This document shows positions 1-11,057 of a stretch of 64,000 nt of DNA, in pieces. The notes beneath the pieces are model-generated. The model searched no databases, was not told the DNA's origin, and worked only from the letters and a program-made list of their open reading frames with translations. Position numbers and translations under genes: made by a program. The DNA comes from Glycomyces buryatensis. Lineage in GTDB: Bacteria > Actinomycetota > Actinomycetes > Mycobacteriales > Micromonosporaceae. Within the stretch, counting starts at the first letter, position 1. Each line of letters starts with the position of its first letter. Location: NCBI RefSeq assembly GCF_004912275.1, contig NZ_STGY01000067.1, forward strand, positions 307,401 to 371,400. Reading direction: 5' to 3'.

Positions 1-1431
1 AAGGCCTGGCTGGTCGCCAAGTTCGACTTCCACAACCGCACTGCCGCGGACATCGCCGCCATTGCCCAGCGCTCACGGAAGTTCGCGGTATTGACCGAGT
101 CCGCACTCTCGCAGACGGCCCGGATCGACCAGGTCGCCTACGCCGTCCGGTCCCTCGACCGCACCCCTGCCATGCGCTTGTATGCCCGAACTCCCTATCG
201 CGAGCCAGTGCCCTCTCCATTCGACCCGGAGATGCTGTGCACGACGCCTGAAACACTGGTAGCCCAGTACTGCGCGCATGCCCCGTATGCCGACCTCCGG
301 GCTCACCTGGCCGAACTCGAAGCCTCTCTGGCAGAGTCCGCCGAACTGTTCGAGGGCCTTGGTGAGCAGTCGCTTCAGCACTTGGACCTGTGGGAGCAGG
401 ACAACGGCATGTGGGGCCTCAATGGGCAGCTGTCGGCCGACACCGGTGCCCTCTTCGCCAAGCTGCTGACCACCTCCGTGCCCCCGCCCCGCCAGGACGA
501 GACCGACACCGAAGGGGACCTGCCTCCCCAAGCGAACCGGAATGCCGAGGCCCTGCACCAGATGCTCGCCTCCTATGGCGCATCCGGGGACGCCCCCACC
601 CGGCACGGCCACACTGCCACGCTCAATCTGGTCGTCGATATCGAGACATTGCAGGGCAAGGACACCGGCCGCCTCCCCCTTCTCGAAGGCCGCCCCATCA
701 GTGTCGCCAGGGCCCGCTTGCTTGCGTGCGAGGCAGTGATCATCCCCGGGGTGTTCGACTACGCCACCGGTGAAGCCGTGGAGCTCGGTCGGGCCTTCCG
801 CCTCCCCACCGCTGCCCTGCGCCGCAAGCTGGAACTGGAACAGCAGGGCGGGTGTGCCTGGCACGGCTGCCAGGCCCCGGTCGAATGGACCGAGGCTCAC
901 CACCTGATCCACTGGGCGAACGGTGGCGAAACGGTCGCGGAGAACCTGATCCTCCTCTGCCGCTTCCACCACGGCCGCATCCACACTCCTGGTTGGAACG
1001 TCACCAAGACCGGCCCCGGCCAGGCGCTCATCGTCCACCACGATCACGATGCAGCCATCACGGCCGACATGGCCGAATACGACACGGACGGGTGCGGGTG
1101 CGCCGACCACCGCTCCAGTGAGGACCTCGAAGCGGACTTCAGAGACGGCCTCGAAGACGACTTCCCGACAGGCCTATACCCCGAGGAACAAACCGGGATC
1201 GGCAACCGCGACTTGAAAGACACTCTCGACGCCTACGCGATGACACAGGCCAAACAAGCTGTCGATCGAGCCAAAGCGAAACTCCGAGAACGGTTCACCA
1301 CACCCGCCGAGGTGTTAGGCCGCCCCGACGGGAGACCGTCGGGGGAGCGCACACCACATAGCGCTCAAGCCCGAATCCCCAAGAGGGATCGGGCACCCCA
1401 GCATGTCCAGGCCTTGATCCCTCAGTATTGA
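1..1431 (+). CDS. DUF222/HNH endonuclease-like protein, 5' end cut by the window
   Basis: The frame is open from base 1 with no stop, so the start lies upstream; 476 residues are visible. The N-terminal two thirds resemble the DUF222 (13E12 repeat) region that precedes HNH domains in actinobacteria. The C-terminal part has an HNH zinc-finger layout: CAWHGC, then EAHHLIHWANGG, then NLILLCRFHH, which supply the Cys pairs and catalytic His. Family members are presumed DNA-cleaving enzymes that often occur in many copies per genome; their biological role is not established. A TTG at base 91 could be an internal start but the frame continues well upstream of it. After the HNH domain comes an acidic then lysine/arginine-rich tail of about 120 residues with no recognised domain. 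Confidence 0.85.
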   Translation, partial: KAWLVAKFDFHNRTAADIAAIAQRSRKFAVLTESALSQTARIDQVAYAVRSLDRTPAMRLYARTPYREPVPSPFDPEMLCTTPETLVAQYCAHAPYADLRAHLAELEASLAESAELFEGLGEQSLQHLDLWEQDNGMWGLNGQLSADTGALFAKLLTTSVPPPRQDETDTEGDLPPQANRNAEALHQMLASYGASGDAPTRHGHTATLNLVVDIETLQGKDTGRLPLLEGRPISVARARLLACEAVIIPGVFDYATGEAVELGRAFRLPTAALRRKLELEQQGGCAWHGCQAPVEWTEAHHLIHWANGGETVAENLILLCRFHHGRIHTPGWNVTKTGPGQALIVHHDHDAAITADMAEYDTDGCGCADHRSSEDLEADFRDGLEDDFPTGLYPEEQTGIGNRDLKDTLDAYAMTQAKQAVDRAKAKLRERFTTPAEVLGRPDGRPSGERTPHSAQARIPKRDRAPQHVQALIPQY

Positions 1432-1532
1432 CACCCCGATCCCTCGGGCCCACACAAATCGGCCACCTCCCCCACAGTCCCGCGCCCCGCGTAGCGCGCC
1501 ACCACGCACCGCCGCGACGCACCGCCGCCACC

Positions 1533-1582
<50 letters not shown>

Positions 1583-1670
1583 TGCCACGACTCGCGCACC
1601 GCTGCACCGCTGCACCCCTGTACCGCCAATCCCCCACCGCCCGCCGAACCCGCCGGAACCGCCGAACCCC

Positions 1671-1702
1671 GGGACACCGGGACACCGGGACACCGGGACA
1701 CC
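1671..1702. repeat. Four perfect copies of the 8-base unit GGGACACC
   Basis: The four units are directly contiguous and identical. The unit length is not a multiple of three, which argues against the stretch being protein-coding. Confidence 0.9.
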
Positions 1703-1910
1703 GACCCAACACCCCTACAAGACAAGGAAAGACGGGAAGAGAACTGCGACCGGAAAGCCCGAGACGGCCGCGCCGCCCACCCCCTACCTCCTCGTCGGTG
1801 CCCGCTCTGACTTCGACTATCAACCCCCGCAAGGCCGACAAGCCGACCGGCCCCACTGCCTACCTCTCGTCGCTGCCCGCTCTGACCGCGCACCGGCCCG
1901 ATCCGGTCCG

Positions 1911-2000
1911 GGCAGGTCCACGCAGGTCCACGCGGCTCCGGGCTGTTCCGGGCTGCTCCGGACTGCTCCAGGCAACTCCAGGCAGCTCCGGTGGCTGGAC
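1911..2000. repeat. Degenerate 10-base tandem repeat, about nine copies
   Basis: Units follow the pattern GGCnGSTCCR (for example GGCAGGTCCA, GGCTGCTCCG, GGCAGCTCCG) at a strict 10-base period across 90 bases. The divergence between units suggests an older array than the perfect 8-mer array upstream. Confidence 0.75.
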
Positions 2001-2037
2001 AACCACTCCGATAGGAGGAACGACCCCGAGGCCGCTG

Positions 2038-3318
2038 TCAGGAGGAAGTGGCCGTCTCGACCTTCTCCTGCGAGAAGTCACGTTGCTTGCGAACTGCGGA
2101 GAATACGATCGGCAAGCTGGCGAACAATGACAGCACTGCCGCCGATATCAGCGCTTCCCGTGGCCCCCAACTAGATGCCAACATTGCGCCCAGCAGCGCT
2201 CCTGCCGGCGCCATGAGGAAGTTGAGGAATCGGAAGGTCGCCATGACCCGTCCCAGCAGGTCCCCCGGGGTCAGCAGTTGTCTGGCACTGATTTGGACGA
2301 CATTGTATGAAGCGATGGCCGCTCCGGTCCCCGCGCCTGCCAGTCCGCCGATCGGTATCAAGAGTTCCGGGGTGGCCAGAGGAAAGAGCACGATGGTGGC
2401 GGGCAACAGCAGCAGGGAATACAGCAGCACCGGCCCCTGACCCAGGCGATTGGTTATCCGCTTCGAAGCGAATGCACCCGCTATACCGCCCACGGACCCT
2501 ATTGCCAGGACGATGCCGATGACACCTGGCGACGCACCGAGCGTGCGCGCCATGAACAAGATGTAGACGGCCATGTACGCGGACATCGCCAGGTTGGTCA
2601 GCATATTGCTTCCCGCTATCGGCCCCAGGATCTTATGCGTCATGACGAATCGCAACCCGATTCCGATGTCACGCAGCAGATTCGAATCCTGCTTCGCCTC
2701 GCGTTCAGGTTGCTCCACCTTCACGCCGAGGAGATACAACCCTGAGAACAGCAGTCCAATGGCGCTCGCAATAACGGTGATGGGAGCCGAGAAGAACGCC
2801 ATGATCTGCCCGCCGAGCGAGGGCCCCGCGAAGTTGGACGCCTGCACCACCCCCGAGAGGCGGGAGTTCGCCTCCACTACCTTCGAGCGGTCGACCAGCA
2901 GCGGCAGAATGCTCTGCCGAGCGGTTTCATACAGCACATTGCTCACTGCGGCGGCGAACGCCACCACCGCCAGGAGGCCGAAGGAGAGCACGCCCGACCA
3001 CCAGGCGAACGGGATTATGAGGGCGATGATCCCCCCTCCGAGCAATGCGCAAACGAGAACGGCCTTGAGCGGCAGCCGGTCCAGCCAGACGCCGACCGGG
3101 AGGCTGATGAGCACGCCCACGCTCGTCATGACCGCGTGCAGCAGGCCCACTTGGAAGTCACTCGCGTCCACCAGGAAGATCGCCACCATGGGGACGATGA
3201 ACATCCAGAGGCGATACCCGACCGAACTGCTGATGGCAGAAACGAAATAGCGCCGGAACCTGGAATCCCGGAAGAGGCTCGGACTCGTCGGGGCCGGGTC
3301 TGGCGGATTCGCTGTCAT
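2038..3318 (-). CDS. MFS transporter, MFS_3/EntS-like, last gene of the peptide operon
   Basis: A 426-residue protein with about twelve hydrophobic segments and the MFS loop between TM2 and TM3 (GVWLDRLPLK). The sequence style (RYFVSAISSSVGYRLWMF, then ETARQSILPLLVDRSKVVEANS) matches the MFS_3 group, which includes enterobactin and macrolide exporters. I chose the ATG at 3318, with TTGGA seven bases upstream; an in-frame TTG at 3330 is possible. It lies 42 bases after the flavin-reductase-like gene on the same strand, so it is probably the export or immunity step of the operon that begins with the small peptide at 6673. Substrate unknown. Confidence 0.85.
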   Translation of the reverse strand: MTANPPDPAPTSPSLFRDSRFRRYFVSAISSSVGYRLWMFIVPMVAIFLVDASDFQVGLLHAVMTSVGVLISLPVGVWLDRLPLKAVLVCALLGGGIIALIIPFAWWSGVLSFGLLAVVAFAAAVSNVLYETARQSILPLLVDRSKVVEANSRLSGVVQASNFAGPSLGGQIMAFFSAPITVIASAIGLLFSGLYLLGVKVEQPEREAKQDSNLLRDIGIGLRFVMTHKILGPIAGSNMLTNLAMSAYMAVYILFMARTLGASPGVIGIVLAIGSVGGIAGAFASKRITNRLGQGPVLLYSLLLLPATIVLFPLATPELLIPIGGLAGAGTGAAIASYNVVQISARQLLTPGDLLGRVMATFRFLNFLMAPAGALLGAMLASSWGPREALISAAVLSLFASLPIVFSAVRKQRDFSQEKVETATSS

Positions 3319-3360
3319 GGCAAGGTCCAATGCTCTCAGAGGGTCACGTATTCGGCTGCG

Positions 3361-3870
3361 TCACTCGATGATCGAACTGCCGACGCCGACGAACCGCTTC
3401 CCGTACCGAAGCAGCGGTTGCCCCACGCCCACACTAGCGTCGGTAATCAAACCTATGATCAGCTCATAGTCTCCGACAGGGGTGACGGACTCGAACGAGC
3501 AGCGGAACCGCGCCAGATAGTCGGCTTCGGTCGCGGAATAGATCGCCTTCAGAGCGCGGTGCATGGACGGAGCGTCGCCTGCGCAGTCGTCGGCTATATC
3601 CAGTTGGTCGTCCCGCAGGAGATGGACATCGAACATCTCGGCCAGCTTGATGCTCGCCAGTGTGCTCGAACCCCGCCTGATCGATGCGGCCAGCCGCGGT
3701 GGTTCATACGTCGGGCACGAAAGCGTGCTGACAGTCAGTCCGTTGACGACATCGCGATGCGAGCACGAGACGACGGCGACCGATCGCGGCAACTGCGTCA
3801 GCGCCGATCGAATGGCATGACCGTTCTCCAGGGTTTCAGTGGTGTCAGTCAAGATTCCGGTCTCTTTCAC
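3361..3870 (-). CDS. Flavin-reductase-like (FMN-binding split barrel) protein
   Basis: A 169-residue protein. Residues from about 24 on (RSVAVVSCSHRDVVNGLTVSTLSCPTYEPP) match the flavin reductase-like fold: the N/G-x-T-x-S pattern contacts FMN in this family, followed by a strand and the S-T-L-A helix. Relatives reduce FMN with NAD(P)H or hold flavin for a partner oxygenase. The GTG start at 3870 has GAGG six bases upstream and sits three bases after the stop of the hydrolase gene, so translation is probably coupled. No partner monooxygenase is present nearby, so it may act directly on the peptide or serve an enzyme elsewhere. Function in this operon is inference. Confidence 0.75.
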   Translation of the reverse strand: MKETGILTDTTETLENGHAIRSALTQLPRSVAVVSCSHRDVVNGLTVSTLSCPTYEPPRLAASIRRGSSTLASIKLAEMFDVHLLRDDQLDIADDCAGDAPSMHRALKAIYSATEADYLARFRCSFESVTPVGDYELIIGLITDASVGVGQPLLRYGKRFVGVGSSIIE

Positions 3871-3873
3871 TGC

Positions 3874-5310
3874 CTACCTCGCCATCGAAACCTGTGTCGC
3901 CGAAAGCCATGAGGCGATTCGCGGGTAAGCCGTCGCCACGGCCCGGTCGGACTTGATCTCATGCCCTTCTTCTGCGAGTTCGACAAAATCGAGCGCCGCG
4001 ATGTCCTCTGCCGCTTTGCGCTGACTCGCCACCGGCACGCGGACATCGCGTCGGCCGTGAACAACGATCGTGGGGACCCTCCGCAGCTTTGCGGCGTCCG
4101 TCTCCGGCAGACGATGCTTCGTTCTGAGCGCGACCACCATCGGATGGCTCGAGGAGTCCAAGGACGAAGCGGTCATGAACCCGGACATCGCGATCAGGCC
4201 GTCGATCGGAGCGTCGAGCGACACGGCCCTCGCGCCGACGTATACGCCGTAGCTGATCCCCAACACGACGACCGGGCCACGGGCTTGAAAGTGCCGGGCC
4301 AGGGTTGCGACCTCACGCGCGTCGTCACTTCCCAGTTCCTCGCAGAGGTGGTATCGCTCCGCCAGCGAGCTTGAGCAGATATTCGGGACGGCGACACGCC
4401 ACCCTTGTCTGGCAAGGTAACTGACGAGGGGCTGGTTCGCGGGCCACGAGGTCGAATGAGGACCGCCGTGCAGCATGACGATGGTCCCGACGGCCGGTGT
4501 GTCGGGCTCATAGATTCCGACCGGAATGGTGTCCACGGTCTTCGCCGAGTAGGCGTAGCAAGCCGACTCCTGGTACACGGGGTCGTTCGCGTGCCGTGAC
4601 AGGCTCTCCGCGAGCGCTTCGAATGAGGTGGCGATGACGCCGGTAGCGGCCGTGTACGCATCGTTCCAGACGCCCGCGACGGTCGTTCCGTCACTTGCGA
4701 TGCTCCCCAGATGCCCGGGGGGCAGGGTGAGTGCGGTGATGACGTCGCCTTGTTCGTCGCGCGCGATGAGCTCCTGGTTCGGCCATCGTTCACGCAGGTA
4801 CCAGATGCGGTCCCCGTATATCAGGGGACGCCCGGTGAGGCGGTCGCGCCAACGGTGCTCTCCGAGGATCTTCCCGTCGGCCGCGGGAATGAACTCGGAG
4901 AGCCCGGGGTAGAGACGCTTCGCGTACACCGCCAGGTGATCGCTGGAATCGCTTCGAATCGTGGTGGGACTGAGCTGGTCGTACGAACTGGCTTGCGTGC
5001 GCCATGTCGTTCCGTCGAATGAGCTTCTGTCGACCTCGACCGTGTCGCCCCGCTTGTGGTACACGTCGAGCGTCCCACCGCCGTCCAGCACCAATGCCGA
5101 CCTCTGCGCGAAATCCGTCAGCGCCTGCCCGGTCTCCGACAGCGTCACCAGACTGTGTCCGCCGGCGATGTCCGAGAGCGCGTATACCGTGCCGTCGAAT
5201 ACCGCGACCGAACGCCATACGCCGCCGGGGCCGCCGATTCGCGCGATATTGAATTCGGGGCCGAGGTCTCGGCCCTCATGCGGATGGCGCGGAGTCGGCG
5301 GGACGATCAT
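3874..5310 (-). CDS. Prolyl-oligopeptidase-like (S9) alpha/beta hydrolase
   Basis: A 478-residue protein. Residues 20-250 have beta-strand-rich repeats compatible with a propeller, and 255-475 form an alpha/beta hydrolase. The oxyanion motif HGGPHS is at 281, the nucleophile elbow GISYG puts Ser at 353, the likely acid is Asp422 in HGRRDVRVPV, and the likely base is His450 in EEGHE, so the triad looks intact. There is no signal peptide, which places it in the cytoplasm. S9 enzymes cleave short peptides, and in several ribosomal peptide pathways they remove leaders or cyclise cores. The ATG overlaps the TGA of the upstream TPR-like gene by an ATGA overlap. A role as the maturation peptidase of the 6602-6673 peptide is my inference. 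Confidence 0.8.
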   Translation of the reverse strand: MIVPPTPRHPHEGRDLGPEFNIARIGGPGGVWRSVAVFDGTVYALSDIAGGHSLVTLSETGQALTDFAQRSALVLDGGGTLDVYHKRGDTVEVDRSSFDGTTWRTQASSYDQLSPTTIRSDSSDHLAVYAKRLYPGLSEFIPAADGKILGEHRWRDRLTGRPLIYGDRIWYLRERWPNQELIARDEQGDVITALTLPPGHLGSIASDGTTVAGVWNDAYTAATGVIATSFEALAESLSRHANDPVYQESACYAYSAKTVDTIPVGIYEPDTPAVGTIVMLHGGPHSTSWPANQPLVSYLARQGWRVAVPNICSSSLAERYHLCEELGSDDAREVATLARHFQARGPVVVLGISYGVYVGARAVSLDAPIDGLIAMSGFMTASSLDSSSHPMVVALRTKHRLPETDAAKLRRVPTIVVHGRRDVRVPVASQRKAAEDIAALDFVELAEEGHEIKSDRAVATAYPRIASWLSATQVSMAR

Positions 5311-6479
5311 ATCGTCGCCTTCAGCCCGGCGGCGGATCGGTCATCGACGAACGGGTTGCGAGCGTAGAGCTGCTGCACGAACTGAGCCTGGAAGTCCTCT
5401 GCGGCGCCTTTCGATTGCAGCAGTTCCCTGGTGGCCAGTTCAACTCCGAGTCCGCCGGTGGCCGTGAATCCGGTGAGGGCCGCGACCGCCGGCTCGATTG
5501 CCCCCATGCGCATCGAGTACTCGAACATGTGCTGCCACACATAGGGGTCCTCATTGTCGATCTCGAGCAATTTGCGACCCCATTTGTTCACCCCGTCGAG
5601 GTCCCGCCCGCCCGCGGCGGCCTTGAAGTGCACCTCCACGACGATTTTGTGGTTCTCCTCGGCGAGGAGTCGGCCATAACCGTCCTCTCCGGAGGTTCGT
5701 GCCATCATCGCTTCCGCATGGGTCATGCATTCGCGCAGCGCCTCTCGCGCCGCACCGATGTTCCGCTTCTTCAGTTCGATGAGCGCTATCAGGCGATACA
5801 GCCTGCTGAGTGCGAGCAGCGACGGGAGGTCCGGATCCGCCTGCTCGAGTTCCCGTTGCGGGGTCGCTACGGATGCGACGGCGGCCTCGGCCGCCGCAAC
5901 GTCATCATAGGTTCGAATCTCCAACGCGCCCAGCTGGATCGCTGCGTTGATCGCGGTGAAGCGAAGGTCCTGGTTCTTGACGATCAGGTCGAACTTCTCG
6001 CGGGCCGACGATGACCTCGGGTCGACCCGGATCTCGGCCCGGGCGATCTCGTAGAGCAGATGCATCCCATGCGGTCCCTGTTCGGGTTGCCCATCGATCG
6101 ACGCGAGCTTCTTGACGATGGGCTGGTGCGTCAGGCAGTTCAAGGCGGCGCACACCTGGGCCTTGCGCAGGGTGCTGAGCCGGGAATACCGGTGGAGGTC
6201 GCGCGAGAGTTCCTGGAACGGTTCGCTTCGATCGCCGAAGCCGGGGTTCTCGTTGTCCAGGAGCGAGTGGGTGGAGCTGAGACCGAATGTTCGAAGGAGG
6301 TGCGCGCGAAGACCGGAGGGGTAGAGCTGCGAGGACATCGGAACCGCCGCCTCGCCCAGGTGGCCCAGCGCCAGGAGCGGTGCATGGCGAAACGCGAACG
6401 GCCCGGTTCTCCTCGCCTCCACATTGATGAGCACTTCCCATATGTCGCGAGTGCGGTTGATGCCTAGCGGACTACTCAT
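5307..6479 (-). CDS. TPR-like helical-repeat protein, unknown function
   Basis: A 390-residue, mostly helical protein with no recognised enzymatic motif. Residues about 200-330 look like degenerate tetratricopeptide repeats (ALSRLYRLIALIELKKRNIGAAREALRECMTHAEAM is a typical helix pair). I chose the ATG at 6479 because GGAG lies seven bases upstream; a longer frame back to 6563 would read through the hairpin at 6539-6574. It is the first large gene after the small peptide gene. TPR proteins bind short peptides, as in RRNPP quorum-sensing receptors or as chaperones for peptide substrates. No DNA-binding domain is visible, so a receptor-type regulator is less likely than a peptide-binding partner. 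Confidence 0.65.
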   Translation of the reverse strand: MSSPLGINRTRDIWEVLINVEARRTGPFAFRHAPLLALGHLGEAAVPMSSQLYPSGLRAHLLRTFGLSSTHSLLDNENPGFGDRSEPFQELSRDLHRYSRLSTLRKAQVCAALNCLTHQPIVKKLASIDGQPEQGPHGMHLLYEIARAEIRVDPRSSSAREKFDLIVKNQDLRFTAINAAIQLGALEIRTYDDVAAAEAAVASVATPQRELEQADPDLPSLLALSRLYRLIALIELKKRNIGAAREALRECMTHAEAMMARTSGEDGYGRLLAEENHKIVVEVHFKAAAGGRDLDGVNKWGRKLLEIDNEDPYVWQHMFEYSMRMGAIEPAVAALTGFTATGGLGVELATRELLQSKGAAEDFQAQFVQQLYARNPFVDDRSAAGLKATI

Positions 6480-6538
6480 AGAAACACTCCGATCAAACGT
6501 TGCCGTATTCGTTTCCGATCGCATGCGGGGCGAAGGGC

Positions 6539-6574
6539 GCCGAAGACGATGCGATACACGCATCGGTCTTCGGC
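6539..6574 (-). terminator. Intercistronic hairpin between the small peptide gene and the TPR gene
   Basis: GCCGAAGACGATGCG pairs with CGCATCGGTCTTCGGC across a five-base loop; the 15-bp stem has a single bulged base. There is no U-run on the minus-strand side, so it may act as a partial terminator, attenuator or 3' stabiliser of the short peptide message. This arrangement is common where a precursor peptide is needed in excess over its processing enzymes. Confidence 0.7.
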
Positions 6575-6601
6575 CCCTTTACTTGCTACTCCGAGGCGGC
6601 G

Positions 6602-6673
6602 TTAGTAGATCACTGCCATGGCGAGAACGTTCAGTTCTTCTTCGACTACATCGCTGAAATCGATCTTCTCCAT
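6602..6673 (-). CDS. Candidate 23-residue precursor or signal peptide
   Basis: The peptide begins MEKIDFSDVVEEEL and ends LAMAVIY just before TAA. AAAGGA lies eight bases upstream of the ATG, a good ribosome-binding site. The first 14 residues are acidic and charged like many RiPP leader regions; the last nine or ten are hydrophobic and end in Tyr. There is no Cys, Thr or Pro, so lanthionine or azole chemistry is unlikely. It heads the operon of TPR, S9 hydrolase, flavin-fold protein and MFS exporter and is separated from it by a strong hairpin. I do not recognise a known precursor family. Alternatives are a peptide signal sensed by the TPR protein, or a regulatory upstream frame. Evidence is context plus the ribosome site; conservation is untested. 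Confidence 0.55.
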   Translation of the reverse strand: MEKIDFSDVVEEELNVLAMAVIY

Positions 6674-6761
6674 GATGATCATCCTTTCGGTTGATTTGAT
6701 GGTTCGGACTTTCGCCCGCCAGAGGACACGTTACCCAAGACATGGAACGATTGCAGCCGTC

Positions 6762-6788
6762 GACAATGCGTTGTCATGTTGTTGACAA
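6762..6788. promoter_or_regulatory. TTGTCA/TGACAA inverted repeats upstream of the peptide gene
   Basis: Three half sites lie in line: GACAA at 6762-6766, TTGTCA at 6771-6776 and TGACAA at 6783-6788, giving two overlapping inverted repeats (spacers of 4 and 6 bases). They are about 90-115 bases upstream of the peptide start, a plausible operator for a dimeric regulator. No regulator gene is next to the operon, so the binding protein is unknown. Confidence 0.4.
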
Positions 6789-7210
6789 TTCGTGTTCTGA
6801 ATGTCCATTCACCATCGACTCCGAATGACGTTCCGAAGCGCTGCAAAATGGTTTCCACGGACTTTGAGAACTCAGTGTTTTCGCAGGTGAGAAGCGAGGT
6901 ACCAATACCTCTAAGAAGGTTGAAAATTTCCCTGCCCGTGTGGGAATCGCCGACTCAAATGATCTTCAGTGGAGCGACGAATTAATGGTGTGCAATGTGC
7001 TTAATGAAGACCGTGATGCCGATGGTAGAACATGGAATAGAGGTGCGCGATCTATTCGATGCAACCCCTGTAAGCCCTGCGAAAATGATTTATACGCCCG
7101 TAACCTGTCGGTTCCACATTCGATACTTCGCGATCGCCTCGGCTTGTGACGAGCATGCGGGCGCCACGGAGTCGACACGGGGCCCGCGGCCGGAATGACG
7201 AGCTCGTGCG
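6789..7210. other. Lower-GC gene-free region upstream of the peptide operon
   Basis: Base composition here is visibly closer to 50% GC than the roughly 70% of the flanking genes. Several frames of 60-70 codons cross it but none has a good ribosome site plus convincing codon use. It separates the peptide operon from the ABC exporter genes. The composition suggests acquired DNA or a decayed gene; I see no insertion-sequence ends. Confidence 0.5.
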
Positions 7211-8956
7211 TCAGCCGGCGGTGCCGTGCCAGGTCCTCCAGAGGCGGGCATAGGGGCCGTTCGCCGTGAGGAGTTCGTGGTGGCTTCCGAGCTCGGCGAG
7301 CCTGCCGTCCTCGATGACGAGGATGCGGTCGGCGTCGTGGGCGGTGTGGAGGCGGTGTGCAATGCCGATGACGGTGCGGCCCTTCAGAACCGCCGCCAAT
7401 GCCCGTTCGGTGTCGCGGGCGGCCCTGGGGTCGAGCATCGCCGTCGCCTCGTCGAGGATCACGACATCGGGGTCGGCCAGGATGAGCCTCGCCAGCGCGA
7501 TCTGCTGCGCGGCCGCGGGATCGAGTTCCTTTGCGGTGCCGCCGAGTTCGGTGTCCAGTCCCGCGGGGAGGTCACCCGCCCACAGCGCGCCGACGGTCGC
7601 CAGGGCCTGCTGCAGCTCCGCGTCCTCGGCTTCGGGTTTCGCGAGCGTGAGGTTGTCGCGCAGGGTCGCGGTGAAGACGTGGTGTTCTTGGGTCACGAGC
7701 GTGACGTGACCTCGGCGTTCGTCCAACGGGAGGGCCGAAACGTCCACTCCCCCGATGACCACCCGGCCCTCGCGCGGGCTGTCGATGCCGGAGACGAGAC
7801 GGGCGATCGTGGACTTGCCGGCGCCGCTGGGGCCGACCACCGCCAAGCGTTCGCCCGCGGGGATGAGCAGGTCGATGCCGTGCAGGACATCCGGTCCGGT
7901 GGAGTAGGCGAAGGTGACGCCGCGCAGTTCGACCGTGCCGTCGGTGGGTGATGCGGTCGCGGTGGCCTCGTCCTCGGTGGCGACGGCCGCAACGCCTTCG
8001 ACCCTGGCGAAGGAGGCGAAGCCGCGCTGTAGCCATTCGACCATCATGAGCAGGAAGTTCAGCGGGGTCATCACCTGGCGGGAGAGCACGGCGCAGGCGG
8101 CGACCTCGCCCAGACTCACCATGCCGTTGAAGTACATCGCGCCGCCGATCACCAGCACCGCCGAGGCCGGGAGCACATAGGAGCTTTCCAGCGTCAGGAA
8201 GTACATGCTGCGCAGGTACAACGTGTACTTGTTCGCCGTCCAGTGGGCGGCGATCGTCGTGTCGCCGATCCGGACGCGCTCCGCTTCGAGCCGGTGGAGT
8301 TCGGCGGTCCGCGCACCGTCGGCGGTCGCCGCCAGCGCTTCACCGGACCGCGACTCGGCCCGGGCCTGCGTCAGGTATCCCGCGCGGGCGCGCTTCAAGT
8401 ACCAGCGCGCACCCACCGCGATGAGCGGTACCGCGAGCAGCATGCAGGCCGCGAGCAGGGCGTTGACCCAGACCATCGCGCCGACGTAGACGAGCGCGGT
8501 CAGGATCGCCACGGCCGCTCTCGGGAGTGCGTCGCGAATGAGGTTGCCCGTCTGCGGGACGTCGACCGAGGTGCGGGTCATGAGGTCGCCGGATCCGGCC
8601 TGCTCGGCGGTGTGCAGCGGCAGTTGCAGGACCCGTTCGACGAAGCGTTCGCGCAGGTGGGCGGAGAGGCGTTCGCCGACGCGGTTGGCGGTGTAGCTCG
8701 CGGCCCAGGTGAGGGCGACGGCGAGTGCGATGGCCGCGGCCATGGCGAGGGCGAGCATGTCGATGTCGGCGATGCTCTGGCCGGCCGAGAGGGAGTCGAT
8801 CATGCGGCCCATGAGCAGCGGCGCGGCGGTGGCGGCGCTCGCGGCGGCCACGCGCAGGGCGATGGCGACGGCGACGCGGGTCCGTTCGGTCAGGAGCAGC
8901 GCGACGAAGGCGCGGCGGACGCGCTCGGGTTCGGCGACGGGGAGTTCGGTGGTCAT
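7211..8956 (-). CDS. ABC exporter half-transporter with intact Walker A and degenerate signature
   Basis: A 581-residue type IV ABC exporter subunit: six-helix membrane domain (about 15-315) fused to a nucleotide-binding domain (about 340-575). Walker A GPSGAGKST at 375 and Walker B VVILDEA at 498 are intact, but the ABC signature expected near 478 reads ELDPAAAQQ instead of LSGGQ. The ATG at 8956 overlaps the TGA of the partner gene (ATGA), so the two are co-translated and almost certainly form a heterodimer. Combined with the partner's defects, one ATP site is canonical and one is degenerate. Substrate unknown; drug, lipid or peptide export are all possible. Confidence 0.88.
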   Translation of the reverse strand: MTTELPVAEPERVRRAFVALLLTERTRVAVAIALRVAAASAATAAPLLMGRMIDSLSAGQSIADIDMLALAMAAAIALAVALTWAASYTANRVGERLSAHLRERFVERVLQLPLHTAEQAGSGDLMTRTSVDVPQTGNLIRDALPRAAVAILTALVYVGAMVWVNALLAACMLLAVPLIAVGARWYLKRARAGYLTQARAESRSGEALAATADGARTAELHRLEAERVRIGDTTIAAHWTANKYTLYLRSMYFLTLESSYVLPASAVLVIGGAMYFNGMVSLGEVAACAVLSRQVMTPLNFLLMMVEWLQRGFASFARVEGVAAVATEDEATATASPTDGTVELRGVTFAYSTGPDVLHGIDLLIPAGERLAVVGPSGAGKSTIARLVSGIDSPREGRVVIGGVDVSALPLDERRGHVTLVTQEHHVFTATLRDNLTLAKPEAEDAELQQALATVGALWAGDLPAGLDTELGGTAKELDPAAAQQIALARLILADPDVVILDEATAMLDPRAARDTERALAAVLKGRTVIGIAHRLHTAHDADRILVIEDGRLAELGSHHELLTANGPYARLWRTWHGTAG

Positions 8957-10662
8957 GTCAGTTCCCGGTTGACCAGGGCCCGGTAGTCGGGCCGGGAGGC
9001 GGTGAGTTCGGCGTGGGTTCCGGTGGCGACGAGCTTGCCGTCCTGGACGAACGCCACGGTGTCGGCTCGGCCCAGCCACAGCGGGGAGGCGCTGGCGATC
9101 GCGGTCGTTCGGCCTTGCCGGAAGTCGGTGAGGCGTTCGACGATGCGGGCTTCGGTGTGGGAGTCGACGGCGGAGGTCGGTTCGCGCAGGAGGAGGACTT
9201 CGGAGTCGGCGGCGAGGTTGCGGGCGAGTCGGAGGCGCTGGCGCTGGCCGCCGGAGAGGGTGCGGGCCTGGTTGTCGAGTTCCGTGCGCAGGCCGTCGGG
9301 CAGCGAGTCGACCACGTCGTTCGCGGAGGCGGCATCGACGGCGGCGGCCGTGGTGATGGCGGTTCCGGCCCGCCGGCCGACGAGGATGGTGTGCAGGGCG
9401 CCGGCGAAGAGGTAGGCGTCGTGGTCGCCTACGAGGATTCTCCGGCGCAGTTCACCCGCGTCCATGCGTGCGACGGGGACGTGGCCGAAGTGGGCTTCGG
9501 AGGGTTCGAGGCCGGCGAGCCTGTCGAAGATCGCGGCGACGGCGTCCGTGTCGCTCGCGGCGATGACGGTCAGTCCCCGGGCCAGGGTGAGGCCGGATTG
9601 GGGGTCGTCGAGGGTGGCGCCGGTTTCGGGTCCCTGCAATGGGTCTCGAGGGGATTCGCGTTCGGGCAGGACGAGGAGTTCGCAGACTTTGGCGCACGCG
9701 ACGCTGCCTTGGATGAGGGTCATCGCGGTGCCCATGAGCCAGCGCACGGGCATGAGCAGCGCGGCGGTGTAGCCGAAGGCGGCCACCATCTGGCCCACGG
9801 TGATCGCGTCGGCGGCGACGAGCCGGGCCGACATCCACACCACGGCGCCGAGCAGGATCGCCGGGGCGCCTTCGGAGACCGCGTCGATCCACGCGCCGGG
9901 GGCGGCGAGTCCGAAGCCGGATCGTTTGAGGCGCTGGGAATCGCGGCGGTAGGCGCCGTTGAAGCGGTCTTCGCCGCCGACGCCGCGCAGGACGCGGAGG
10001 CCGGCGACGATGTCGGCGGCGCGTTCGGTGACGGCGCCGATGTCCTTCCGGTAGGACCCGTACCGGGACTGGAGGCGTCGCAGCATGGGGCCGGTGATCG
10101 CGGCGACGGCGATGACGCCGGTGAAGACCGTGAGGCCCAGGACGGCGGACATGTTGAACAGCAGGACGGCTACTGCGATGATCCCGGAGACGCAGCCGAT
10201 CGTCGGGGCGAGCGACTCGGTGGCGCGGCCGATCGAGACGACGTCGGTGACGCCGACGCTGACCACCGAGCCGGTGGTCGTGTGCGTGCGGAACCGCGAA
10301 CCGAGTCGTGCGGTCTTGCGGGTCGCCAGTTGGAGGACGCGGTACTGGGCGTCGTGGCGCCACCACACGGTGAGGCGGTGGTGGAGCACGATGCTTACGG
10401 CCGCAACCGAACCGGCGAGGGCCAGGGCTCCGGCCCAGGCGGCGAGGGCGCCCCAGTCGCGGCCGCGGATGCCGTCGTCGACGGCGCCGGTGAGGAAGAT
10501 CGGCATGACCGGGACGAGTCCGAGGGAGAAGACCGCGGAGATGAGGACGGCTGCGGCGAGGGACTTTCGGCGGGTGGCGAGCCAGCCGAAGAGCCGCCAG
10601 GGCGTGGTCGGAGGGGTGCCGGGGTCGGCGACGGGGAGGTCGGGGGCGCGGAGGAGTGCCAC
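8953..10662 (-). CDS. ABC exporter half-transporter with lost Walker A and intact signature
   Basis: A 569-residue partner of the next gene: membrane domain (about 25-330) and nucleotide-binding domain. The expected Walker A at about 366-376 reads VIAASDTDAV and lacks the Gly-rich Lys-Ser/Thr loop. Walker B at 489 reads VLLLREP, with Arg in place of the usual Asp. The signature LSGGQRQR at 469 is perfect. Its signature therefore completes the ATP site formed by the Walker A of the 7211-8956 subunit, while this subunit's own Walker region faces the partner's degenerate signature. Upstream lies the arsR-type gene on the same strand across a 77-base gap. Confidence 0.88.
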   Translation of the reverse strand: MALLRAPDLPVADPGTPPTTPWRLFGWLATRRKSLAAAVLISAVFSLGLVPVMPIFLTGAVDDGIRGRDWGALAAWAGALALAGSVAAVSIVLHHRLTVWWRHDAQYRVLQLATRKTARLGSRFRTHTTTGSVVSVGVTDVVSIGRATESLAPTIGCVSGIIAVAVLLFNMSAVLGLTVFTGVIAVAAITGPMLRRLQSRYGSYRKDIGAVTERAADIVAGLRVLRGVGGEDRFNGAYRRDSQRLKRSGFGLAAPGAWIDAVSEGAPAILLGAVVWMSARLVAADAITVGQMVAAFGYTAALLMPVRWLMGTAMTLIQGSVACAKVCELLVLPERESPRDPLQGPETGATLDDPQSGLTLARGLTVIAASDTDAVAAIFDRLAGLEPSEAHFGHVPVARMDAGELRRRILVGDHDAYLFAGALHTILVGRRAGTAITTAAAVDAASANDVVDSLPDGLRTELDNQARTLSGGQRQRLRLARNLAADSEVLLLREPTSAVDSHTEARIVERLTDFRQGRTTAIASASPLWLGRADTVAFVQDGKLVATGTHAELTASRPDYRALVNRELT

Positions 10663-10739
10663 GTGGTCACCGTACGGGCGTCGAGCCCGATCGGCAAACG
10701 GTTAACTGCTCCGATTTCGACGATCCGCGGCGCCGCGGA

Positions 10740-11057
10740 TTACTGCTTCGCGGGGGTTTCCCCAAGGGCCGCTTCAAGAATGGTGCGGAGGTGGTCGCCC
10801 GCCGCCGTGTAGTACATGAAGGTTCCCTCGCGGCGGGCGTGGACCAGGCCGGCGAGTTTCAGCTTCGAGAGGTGCTGGCTGACGGCGGTGGGCCTGGCGC
10901 CCACGAGGTCCGCCAGGCAGGCCACGTTCTCCTCGCCCTCGAGCAGCGCCCACATGAGCTTCAACCGGGTCGGGTCGGAGAGCATGCGCAGCGCGTCCGC
11001 GGCGGCGACGACGCGTTCCTCGTCGGGCATGTGGAAGTTCGGCAGCCCCTTGTGCAT
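10740..11057 (-). CDS. ArsR/SmtB-family metal-responsive repressor
   Basis: A 105-residue winged-helix protein. Residues 18-35 (ADALRMLSDPTRLKLMWALL) and the recognition region ARPTAVSQHLSKLKLAGLVHARREGTFMYY are typical of ArsR regulators. One Cys is present in the alpha-3 position (NVACLADL), and His and Cys candidates are few, so the sensed metal cannot be assigned. It is divergent from the metal ATPase gene, and the 47-base gap holds a perfect palindrome, so it probably represses both. Confidence 0.88.
   Translation of the reverse strand: MHKGLPNFHMPDEERVVAAADALRMLSDPTRLKLMWALLEGEENVACLADLVGARPTAVSQHLSKLKLAGLVHARREGTFMYYTAAGDHLRTILEAALGETPAKQ

Follow-up and report, generated by a model that had tools for sequence, protein, structure and literature searches.

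A candidate RiPP-type operon with a TPR-like protein and a short acidic precursor gene in Glycomyces buryatensis

Do five closely spaced genes in the genome of Glycomyces buryatensis produce a modified peptide from a precursor of only 23 residues? The genes lie in a stretch of 64,000 nucleotides (assembly GCF_004912275.1, contig NZ_STGY01000067.1, positions 307,401 to 371,400 of the forward strand), which is referred to as the window and whose numbering is used below (Table 1). On the minus strand they encode, in this order, an acidic 23-residue peptide (23-mer), a tetratricopeptide repeat (TPR)-like protein, a hydrolase, a flavin reductase and a major facilitator superfamily (MFS) protein. 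An earlier interpretation made from the letters of the DNA, the sequence-only reading, had described an operon of the type that makes ribosomally synthesized and post-translationally modified peptides (RiPPs). All five frames were intact and were arranged as that reading had stated: the 23-mer gene with its ribosome site heads the unit, the start of the hydrolase gene overlaps the stop of the TPR-like gene by 4 nt (ATGA) and the flavin reductase gene starts 3 nt past the hydrolase stop. In addition, the MFS gene begins 42 nt after the flavin reductase gene, and a gap of 122 nt separates the 23-mer gene from the TPR-like gene. With moderate confidence, we favor a horizontally acquired RiPP-type operon, in which the acidic 23-mer would be held by the TPR-like protein, changed at its C-terminal part by a flavin-dependent step, cut by the S9-like hydrolase and exported by the MFS protein. 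Its probable function is to make a modified 23-residue peptide, to trim it and to send it out of the cell.

Homologs of the TPR-like protein were rare. Searches with the sequence of the window protein alone matched one of 61 relatives, which was the window genome itself, and two of 394 genomes of the class. The second match in the class, 27% identical, belonged to a cluster (L003) with genes for YcaO, JmjC, MFS and S9 hydrolase proteins. A search from the L003 protein matched 6 of 150 genomes of the family of L003, L003 included. Profile searches gave matches in 3 of 394 genomes at the class level and in 14 of 397 at the order level, the window genome being counted in both; because four candidates were scored per genome, these counts are lower bounds. 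No match of the window protein was found in plasmids or in viral contigs. A match in a Paludibacter metagenome-assembled genome (30% identity over residues 16–91), the sole one confirmed among 23 pattern-matched stretches, was probably due to chance and was kept outside the comparison. All other matched genomes provided the 19 related TPR loci of this study (L003, L012–L016, L020 and L039–L050), whose genes were called by codon usage and homology, with approximate start positions.

At 13 of these 19 loci, some of which are orthologous and thus not independent of one another, the gene run that includes the TPR gene also contained an acidic open reading frame of 18–40 residues led by a ribosome site (L003, L012, L013, L014, L015, L016, L020, L039, L040, L041 with two copies, L043, L044 and L045). 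In several clusters, another gene sits between the peptide gene and the TPR gene. A fixed rule (16–45 residues, ATG or GTG start, strong ribosome site, net acidic charge of at least 2, outside called genes), which was defined after the peptides of the relatives had been seen, gave 16 distinct frames over the 19 loci, 14 of which were inside the TPR runs. Such a frame lay within 400 nt upstream of 7 of 20 TPR genes, compared with 7 of 261 other genes. Applied to the whole window, the rule returned two frames, the 23-mer and a weaker one with a net charge of −2 just upstream of it. Related operons with TPR and hydrolase genes but no short frame would have contradicted the sequence-only reading. 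No such operon was found: all seven loci bearing an S9 gene (L003, L012–L016 and L041) have one, and none of the six loci without a short frame has an S9 match.

The modifying enzymes encoded beside the TPR genes varied substantially. The L003 and L012–L014 clusters shared genes for YcaO, TPR, MFS, SRPBCC-PDZ and S9 proteins, and JmjC was present in L003, L012 and L013 and absent from L014. The L015 cluster encoded two nitroreductase-family (SagB-like) proteins, an S9 protein, three TPR proteins, a MATE exporter, a flavin reductase, a methyltransferase and a B12 radical S-adenosylmethionine (SAM) protein whose score exceeded the threshold set in NCBIfam for RiPP C-methyltransferases. ThiF, S9, TPR and MFS genes were found in L016 and L041, of which L041 also had a flavin reductase gene. 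L020, L039 and L040 combined a class-V pyridoxal phosphate (PLP) enzyme, tandem TPR proteins, an M17 aminopeptidase and an MFS protein; these genes except MFS were scanned in L039 and were assigned by homology in the other two. Finally, L043 had a condensation-domain protein with TPR and MFS, L045 a 2-oxoglutarate-Fe oxygenase with TPR and a divergent MFS, and L044 a TPR gene and MFS pieces read by eye. Among the 13 loci, peptidases were of the S9 type in seven and of the M17 type in three, and neither type was found in the remaining three; the exporters were MFS in 11 and MATE in one, and the MFS assignment in L044 was made by eye alone. Thus, an acidic peptide gene, a TPR gene, a peptidase gene and an exporter gene recur together in independent clusters, and the TPR family is associated with recognized RiPP maturases.

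The peptides themselves also showed common features. The 23-mer has no Cys, Thr or Pro, as the sequence-only reading had noted, and it has one Ser, a net charge of −5 and a C-terminal Tyr. Translation could also start at an in-frame ATG three codons upstream (6682) and yield 26 residues, but this codon directly adjoins the ribosome site. A TPR tree of 17 rows with an arbitrary root (L039, L040, L042, L043, L048 and L050 left out) placed the window protein with those of the YcaO group, L015 and L044 on one side of a split with a support of 96/97, on a long branch whose placement is unsure. On this side of the tree the Tyr end recurs: it is found in the precursors of five of the six relatives, the four YcaO loci and L015 (two independent groups), and the L044 precursor ends in YPT. 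Moreover, paired peptide genes within the two orthologous sets differed mostly at third codon positions, the differences at the three positions being, for example, 1, 1 and 6 for L003/L012 and 2, 2 and 7 for L020/L039. The RNA downstream of the 23-mer gene forms a long stem, with −38.6 kcal/mol and a z of −3.7 for the first 80 nt past the stop codon; the whole 122-nt gap has −48.4 kcal/mol and a z of −2.0, with 7 of 200 shuffles as good. Marked hairpins 3' of the peptide gene were also found in L015, L016, L041 (second copy), L020 and L039 (z from −3.8 to −6.7) and weaker ones in L040, L043 and L045, and none was outstanding in L044 or after the first copy of L041. Such a hairpin fits an excess of precursor over enzymes and does not prove it.

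Given the recurrence of acidic genes, the varied enzymes, the peptidases and exporters, the Tyr ends and the hairpins, a RiPP-type logic with a TPR partner is well supported by the comparison of clusters. This support does not extend to the chemistry in the window: the proposals of the sequence-only reading that the end AVIY is the core and that a flavin-dependent step modifies it are not supported. The recurrence also supports the view of the sequence-only reading that the 23-mer is a real short acidic gene that heads a RiPP-type operon. The combination of related TPR genes and tiny acidic peptide genes with differing modifying enzymes suggests an undescribed peptide-tailoring family.

Some related loci had features of their own. 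In L041, two near-identical tandem genes for 20-residue precursors ending in AEWEYA lie between the ThiF and S9 genes (10575–10743). The orthologous clusters of L020 (8180–14748), L039 (5364–11885) and L040 (4695–11453) contain a conserved 29-residue peptide that ends in CWVCLVDA or CWVCLVDN; adjoining the genes for the class-V PLP enzyme, the tandem TPR proteins and the M17 aminopeptidase, it looks like part of a separate undescribed peptide pathway. In L046, L048 and L050, the TPR gene is paired with a similar neighbor of about 306 residues, a regulator by eye, without a short acidic gene, which is perhaps another role of the TPR family. L042 encodes an FxsB-type cyclophane radical SAM protein (5626–6789, above the NCBIfam cut-off) and an MFS protein (7406–8413) near the TPR match, without a clear acidic precursor.

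The enzymes of the window were related to those of the clusters to different degrees. Homologs of the hydrolase are encoded in the L003, L012–L014, L016 and L041 clusters, with those of the L003 group being nearest, and the GxSxG, Asp and His motifs of the window enzyme align with those of the relatives. The window enzyme had been called an S9 peptidase; it passed the Abhydrolase_1 threshold, but its Pfam S9 score of 21.2 bits was under the cut-off of 22.6, which leaves it S9-like, and no PDB match was found at 0.001. Use of S9 enzymes as leader peptidases, to which the sequence-only reading had appealed, has a precedent in FlaP, an S9 prolyl-oligopeptidase-type enzyme that the excerpt of its source implicates in leader removal of a class III lanthipeptide (PMC10885120). 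Different from the FlaP system, the window operon has no lanthipeptide synthetase, and the 23-mer lacks the Cys and Thr residues. The protein previously described as having a flavin fold is more precisely a Flavin_Reduct domain protein, and such domains recur in L015 and L041. The MFS protein is nearest to that of L043 and next to those of the L003 group.

The TPR assignment of the window protein was retained in part. Its own sequence matched no Pfam or NCBIfam model, whereas its relatives match TPR models, one of them above its cut-off, and a single-sequence structure model was all-helical and weak (mean pLDDT 56). It is called TPR-like because of these relatives and this model, and no fold claim is made because the model is weak and had no PDB match that reached an E value of 0.001. 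A profile of the family against the PDB gave mostly generic TPR chains among the matches listed (60 of 119).

Several results weigh against a tailored and exported 23-mer. Six of the 19 related loci (L042 and L046–L050) have no short acidic frame in the TPR run, so that the expectation of the sequence-only reading, a short acidic peptide with a Tyr tail always preceding the TPR gene, was borne out for the acidic frame at 13 loci and failed at six. Among the six, L047 has a 60-residue frame with TPR and JmjC genes, the TPR gene of L046 is 137 nt from the contig end, and in L042 the single acidic frame that the rule picks lies past the MFS gene and was counted as outside. When the 23-mer was scored against precursor profiles, 918 of 5000 of its own shuffles did as well for eight peptides, 1693 of 5000 for all peptides and 176 of 5000 for the ThiF type, so that the similarity is not significant. 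In the L020 set, codons that change the residue (4–6) and silent ones (5–7) were nearly equal in number. The four YcaO loci of the L003 type have no outstanding hairpin 3' of the peptide gene. A net positive charge is uncommon among the TPR proteins: 15 of 19 are negative, and the window protein is at −4. No ortholog of the window operon was found in the genomes searched, as the TPR-like protein was in 1 of 22 genus genomes, the window genome itself, and the other matches in the order were all distant. Furthermore, Pfam and NCBIfam scans of the operon revealed no known maturase and no candidate peptide-modifying enzyme other than the flavin reductase, whereas recognized modifying enzymes are present in most relatives. 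The flavin reductase is about 20% identical to the reductases of L015 and L041 and, because of this low identity, may have been recruited separately.

The lack of a known maturase had been taken to indicate a new class. No YcaO match was found in the window genome (the control was positive in 5 of 14 genomes), in agreement with that claim; several relatives, however, carry YcaO, radical SAM, ThiF or SagB-like genes, and thus the lack is a trait of the window member and not of the family. HpaB (PF03241), a potential partner of the reductase, also had no match in the window genome, whereas the control search detected it in 4 of 14 genomes. PF04738 (PEARL, short LanB) matched none of the operon genes and nothing in the window genome, and the control genomes were equally silent. 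Accordingly, a YcaO class of the streptamidine or thiazole/oxazole-modified microcin (TOMM) type was rejected for the window operon on the ground of the missing YcaO, and a two-component HpaBC-type monooxygenase was rejected as its HpaB partner was not found in the genome.

In the favored reading, the precursor excess, the binding, the order of the steps, the site and kind of modification and the product are inferred. The acidic 23-mer would be translated in excess over the enzymes, aided by the hairpin past its gene. The TPR-like protein would bind the acidic, amphipathic N-terminal part and present the hydrophobic C-terminal end that finishes in Tyr. A flavin-dependent reaction supplied by the flavin reductase would then alter the C-terminal part near this Tyr, after which the S9-like hydrolase would cut the altered peptide and the product would leave the cell through the MFS protein.

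Among described systems, BhaC1 and AmmC1 are the closest working parallel to the combination of an acidic Tyr-ended 23-mer, a TPR-like protein and a flavin reductase. Both are flavin mononucleotide (FMN) enzymes that contain a TPR domain and whose target is a C-terminal Trp on highly acidic scaffold peptides; models put the acidic part into a positive cleft of the TPR domain and the C-terminus into a tunnel, and a length of 20 residues is required (PMC9850906). Similar to these PEARL (pearlin) pathways, the window operon combines a small, highly acidic peptide, a TPR protein, a link to flavin and a C-terminal aromatic residue, and like the ammosamide cluster it has predicted peptidase and transporter functions (PMC9850906; PMC12424672). 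Different from them, it has no PEARL, its TPR protein is much shorter and its aromatic residue is a ribosomal Tyr instead of an appended Trp. The biphenomycin clusters (bip/pbs) also have a short precursor with a C-terminal core, an MFS protein and the TPR-annotated BipC/PbsE, and their JmjC and B12 radical SAM proteins each occur also beside some relatives of the window TPR protein (PMC12707348; PMC12257519). BipC, however, turned out to be an arginase that belongs to the UPF0489 superfamily (PMC12707348), and the window operon lacks the MNIO, radical SAM and metalloprotease genes of biphenomycin. Because BhaC1 and AmmC1 are TPR flavoenzymes and BipC is an arginase, the window TPR-like protein may be a leader-binding partner, an enzyme or both. 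Similar to streptamidine (ami) as described in an excerpt of its source, the L003 group pairs actinobacterial short precursors without Ser/Thr/Cys-rich regions with a hydrolase and YcaO; in contrast to the window operon, that excerpt names neither TPR nor MFS nor flavin reductase genes for ami (PMC8442711).

Other explanations of the operon differ in how much of this chemistry they retain. It may perform scaffold-peptide chemistry without a PEARL, in which the TPR-like protein itself, fed by the reductase, would be an FMN-dependent oxygenase like BhaC1 and AmmC1; the C-terminal Tyr would be hydroxylated or made into a quinone, and the hydrolase would free a tyrosine-derived molecule for export by the MFS protein. 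The joint presence of a TPR protein, a flavin reductase and an acidic peptide with an aromatic C-terminus is consistent with this, as is the lack in the genome of a partner from HpaB, the one oxygenase family that the search covered. The 390 residues of the window protein, however, compare with named residues up to 654 in BhaC1 and 602 in AmmC1, and the TPR family accompanies YcaO and other maturases, so that it need not be the catalyst there. We consider this explanation doubtful. Slightly less probable still is a remnant: a cluster of the YcaO or SagB-like type would have been stripped of its maturase during transfer and would now be decaying or serving another role. The window TPR-like protein and hydrolase do have their nearest relatives in clusters with maturases of these types, and the insert looks foreign in a genome without YcaO, but five intact frames with tight couplings and ribosome sites argue against decay, and a flavin reductase is also part of two related clusters.

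Two further explanations deny that the 23-mer is modified. It could be a chance frame or a leader frame for attenuation, with the remainder being a catabolic or detoxification operon; the 23-mer has no significant similarity to other precursors and the hairpin might act simply as an attenuator. Acidic short genes nevertheless recur beside the TPR family in independent clusters, and two orthologous peptide sets drift at third positions, which makes this explanation unlikely. Peptide signaling, in which the exported 23-mer would be trimmed to a pheromone bound by the TPR-like protein, would resemble RRNPP systems, whose TPR proteins bind short peptides. The operon has an exporter and a peptidase, and the weak fold matches of the TPR-like protein include NprR (rank 35, E 0.024). 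However, no DNA-binding or phosphatase domain was matched in this protein, although it matches no model at all, the operon has no regulator and the relatives carry modifying enzymes; we consider signaling very improbable. The tailored and exported 23-mer is the reading that we prefer over these four.

The surroundings of the operon point to its acquisition from elsewhere. GC content was 0.57–0.65 over 2001–7000 and 0.70–0.73 from 8001 on. The ABC transporter gene just upstream of the operon was matched in all 22 genus genomes, with 80–84% identity in five mates. Between two ABC units, however, about 9.8 kb including the operon matched nothing at the DNA level in the equivalent regions of the five mates, and none of the 21 other genus genomes gave a match to the TPR gene. 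The operon thus looks like a foreign insert, which in the favored reading would have been acquired horizontally. A scan for promoters and terminators gave no signal that exceeded shuffles.

Table 1. Features of the operon and of its surroundings, in window coordinates.
Feature	Position	Strand	Basis or remark
Candidate precursor gene, 23-residue acidic peptide MEKIDFSDVVEEELNVLAMAVIY	6602–6673	−	AAAGGA ribosome site upstream
Candidate attenuator, strong RNA hairpin directly 3' of the 23-mer gene	6530–6582	−	folding compared with shuffles
TPR-like alpha-helical protein, 390 residues	5307–6479	−	GGAG before ATG; homologs, tree
S9-like alpha/beta hydrolase, 478 residues, probable peptidase	3874–5310	−	Pfam, homology, aligned motifs
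HpaC-like flavin reductase domain protein, 169 residues, GTG start	3361–3870	−	PF01613 (Flavin_Reduct) 1.1e-19; nearest solved structure HpaC (2ecr), 5.4e-11
Predicted MFS exporter, 426 residues	2038–3318	−	library scans, homology
Perfect inverted repeat TTGTCA-N6-TGACAA 5' of the operon	6771–6788		possible operator
In-window part of the ~9.8-kb stretch without DNA match in five genus mates	1–7210		lower GC

Within the stretch that is not shared with the genus mates, positions 91–2000 of the window contain a nuclease-like gene, which from its motif we take to be of the HNH type, followed by low-complexity short repeats. On the window contig, paralogous ABC transporter units (1196–4591 and 14612–16357 in L057 coordinates) flank an interval that varies in length and content among the genus mates examined.

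Known maturases or RiPP recognition element (RRE) domains are the starting point of much RiPP mining, and no description of this TPR family or of its precursors was found among the papers listed by searches of the open-licence literature of PubMed Central. Tentatively, and with little expectation that all parts hold jointly, an undescribed RiPP-like superfamily may be proposed, in which TPR proteins would replace the RRE and diverse maturases would act on tiny acidic precursors of 18–40 residues. The window operon would be its smallest member, with the TPR-like protein and the flavin reductase forming a two-component oxygenase that acts on the C-terminal Tyr and with the S9-like enzyme releasing a tyrosine-derived product. 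If true, the pathways that such mining misses could be found in a new way through the TPR genes, which would flag tiny precursors next to many unrelated maturases, and the question would arise whether leader peptides are recognized by TPR proteins as a second, general route. The window operon offers a test system of five genes; if a product is made, a flavin-dependent peptide modification without a known oxygenase would need to be explained.

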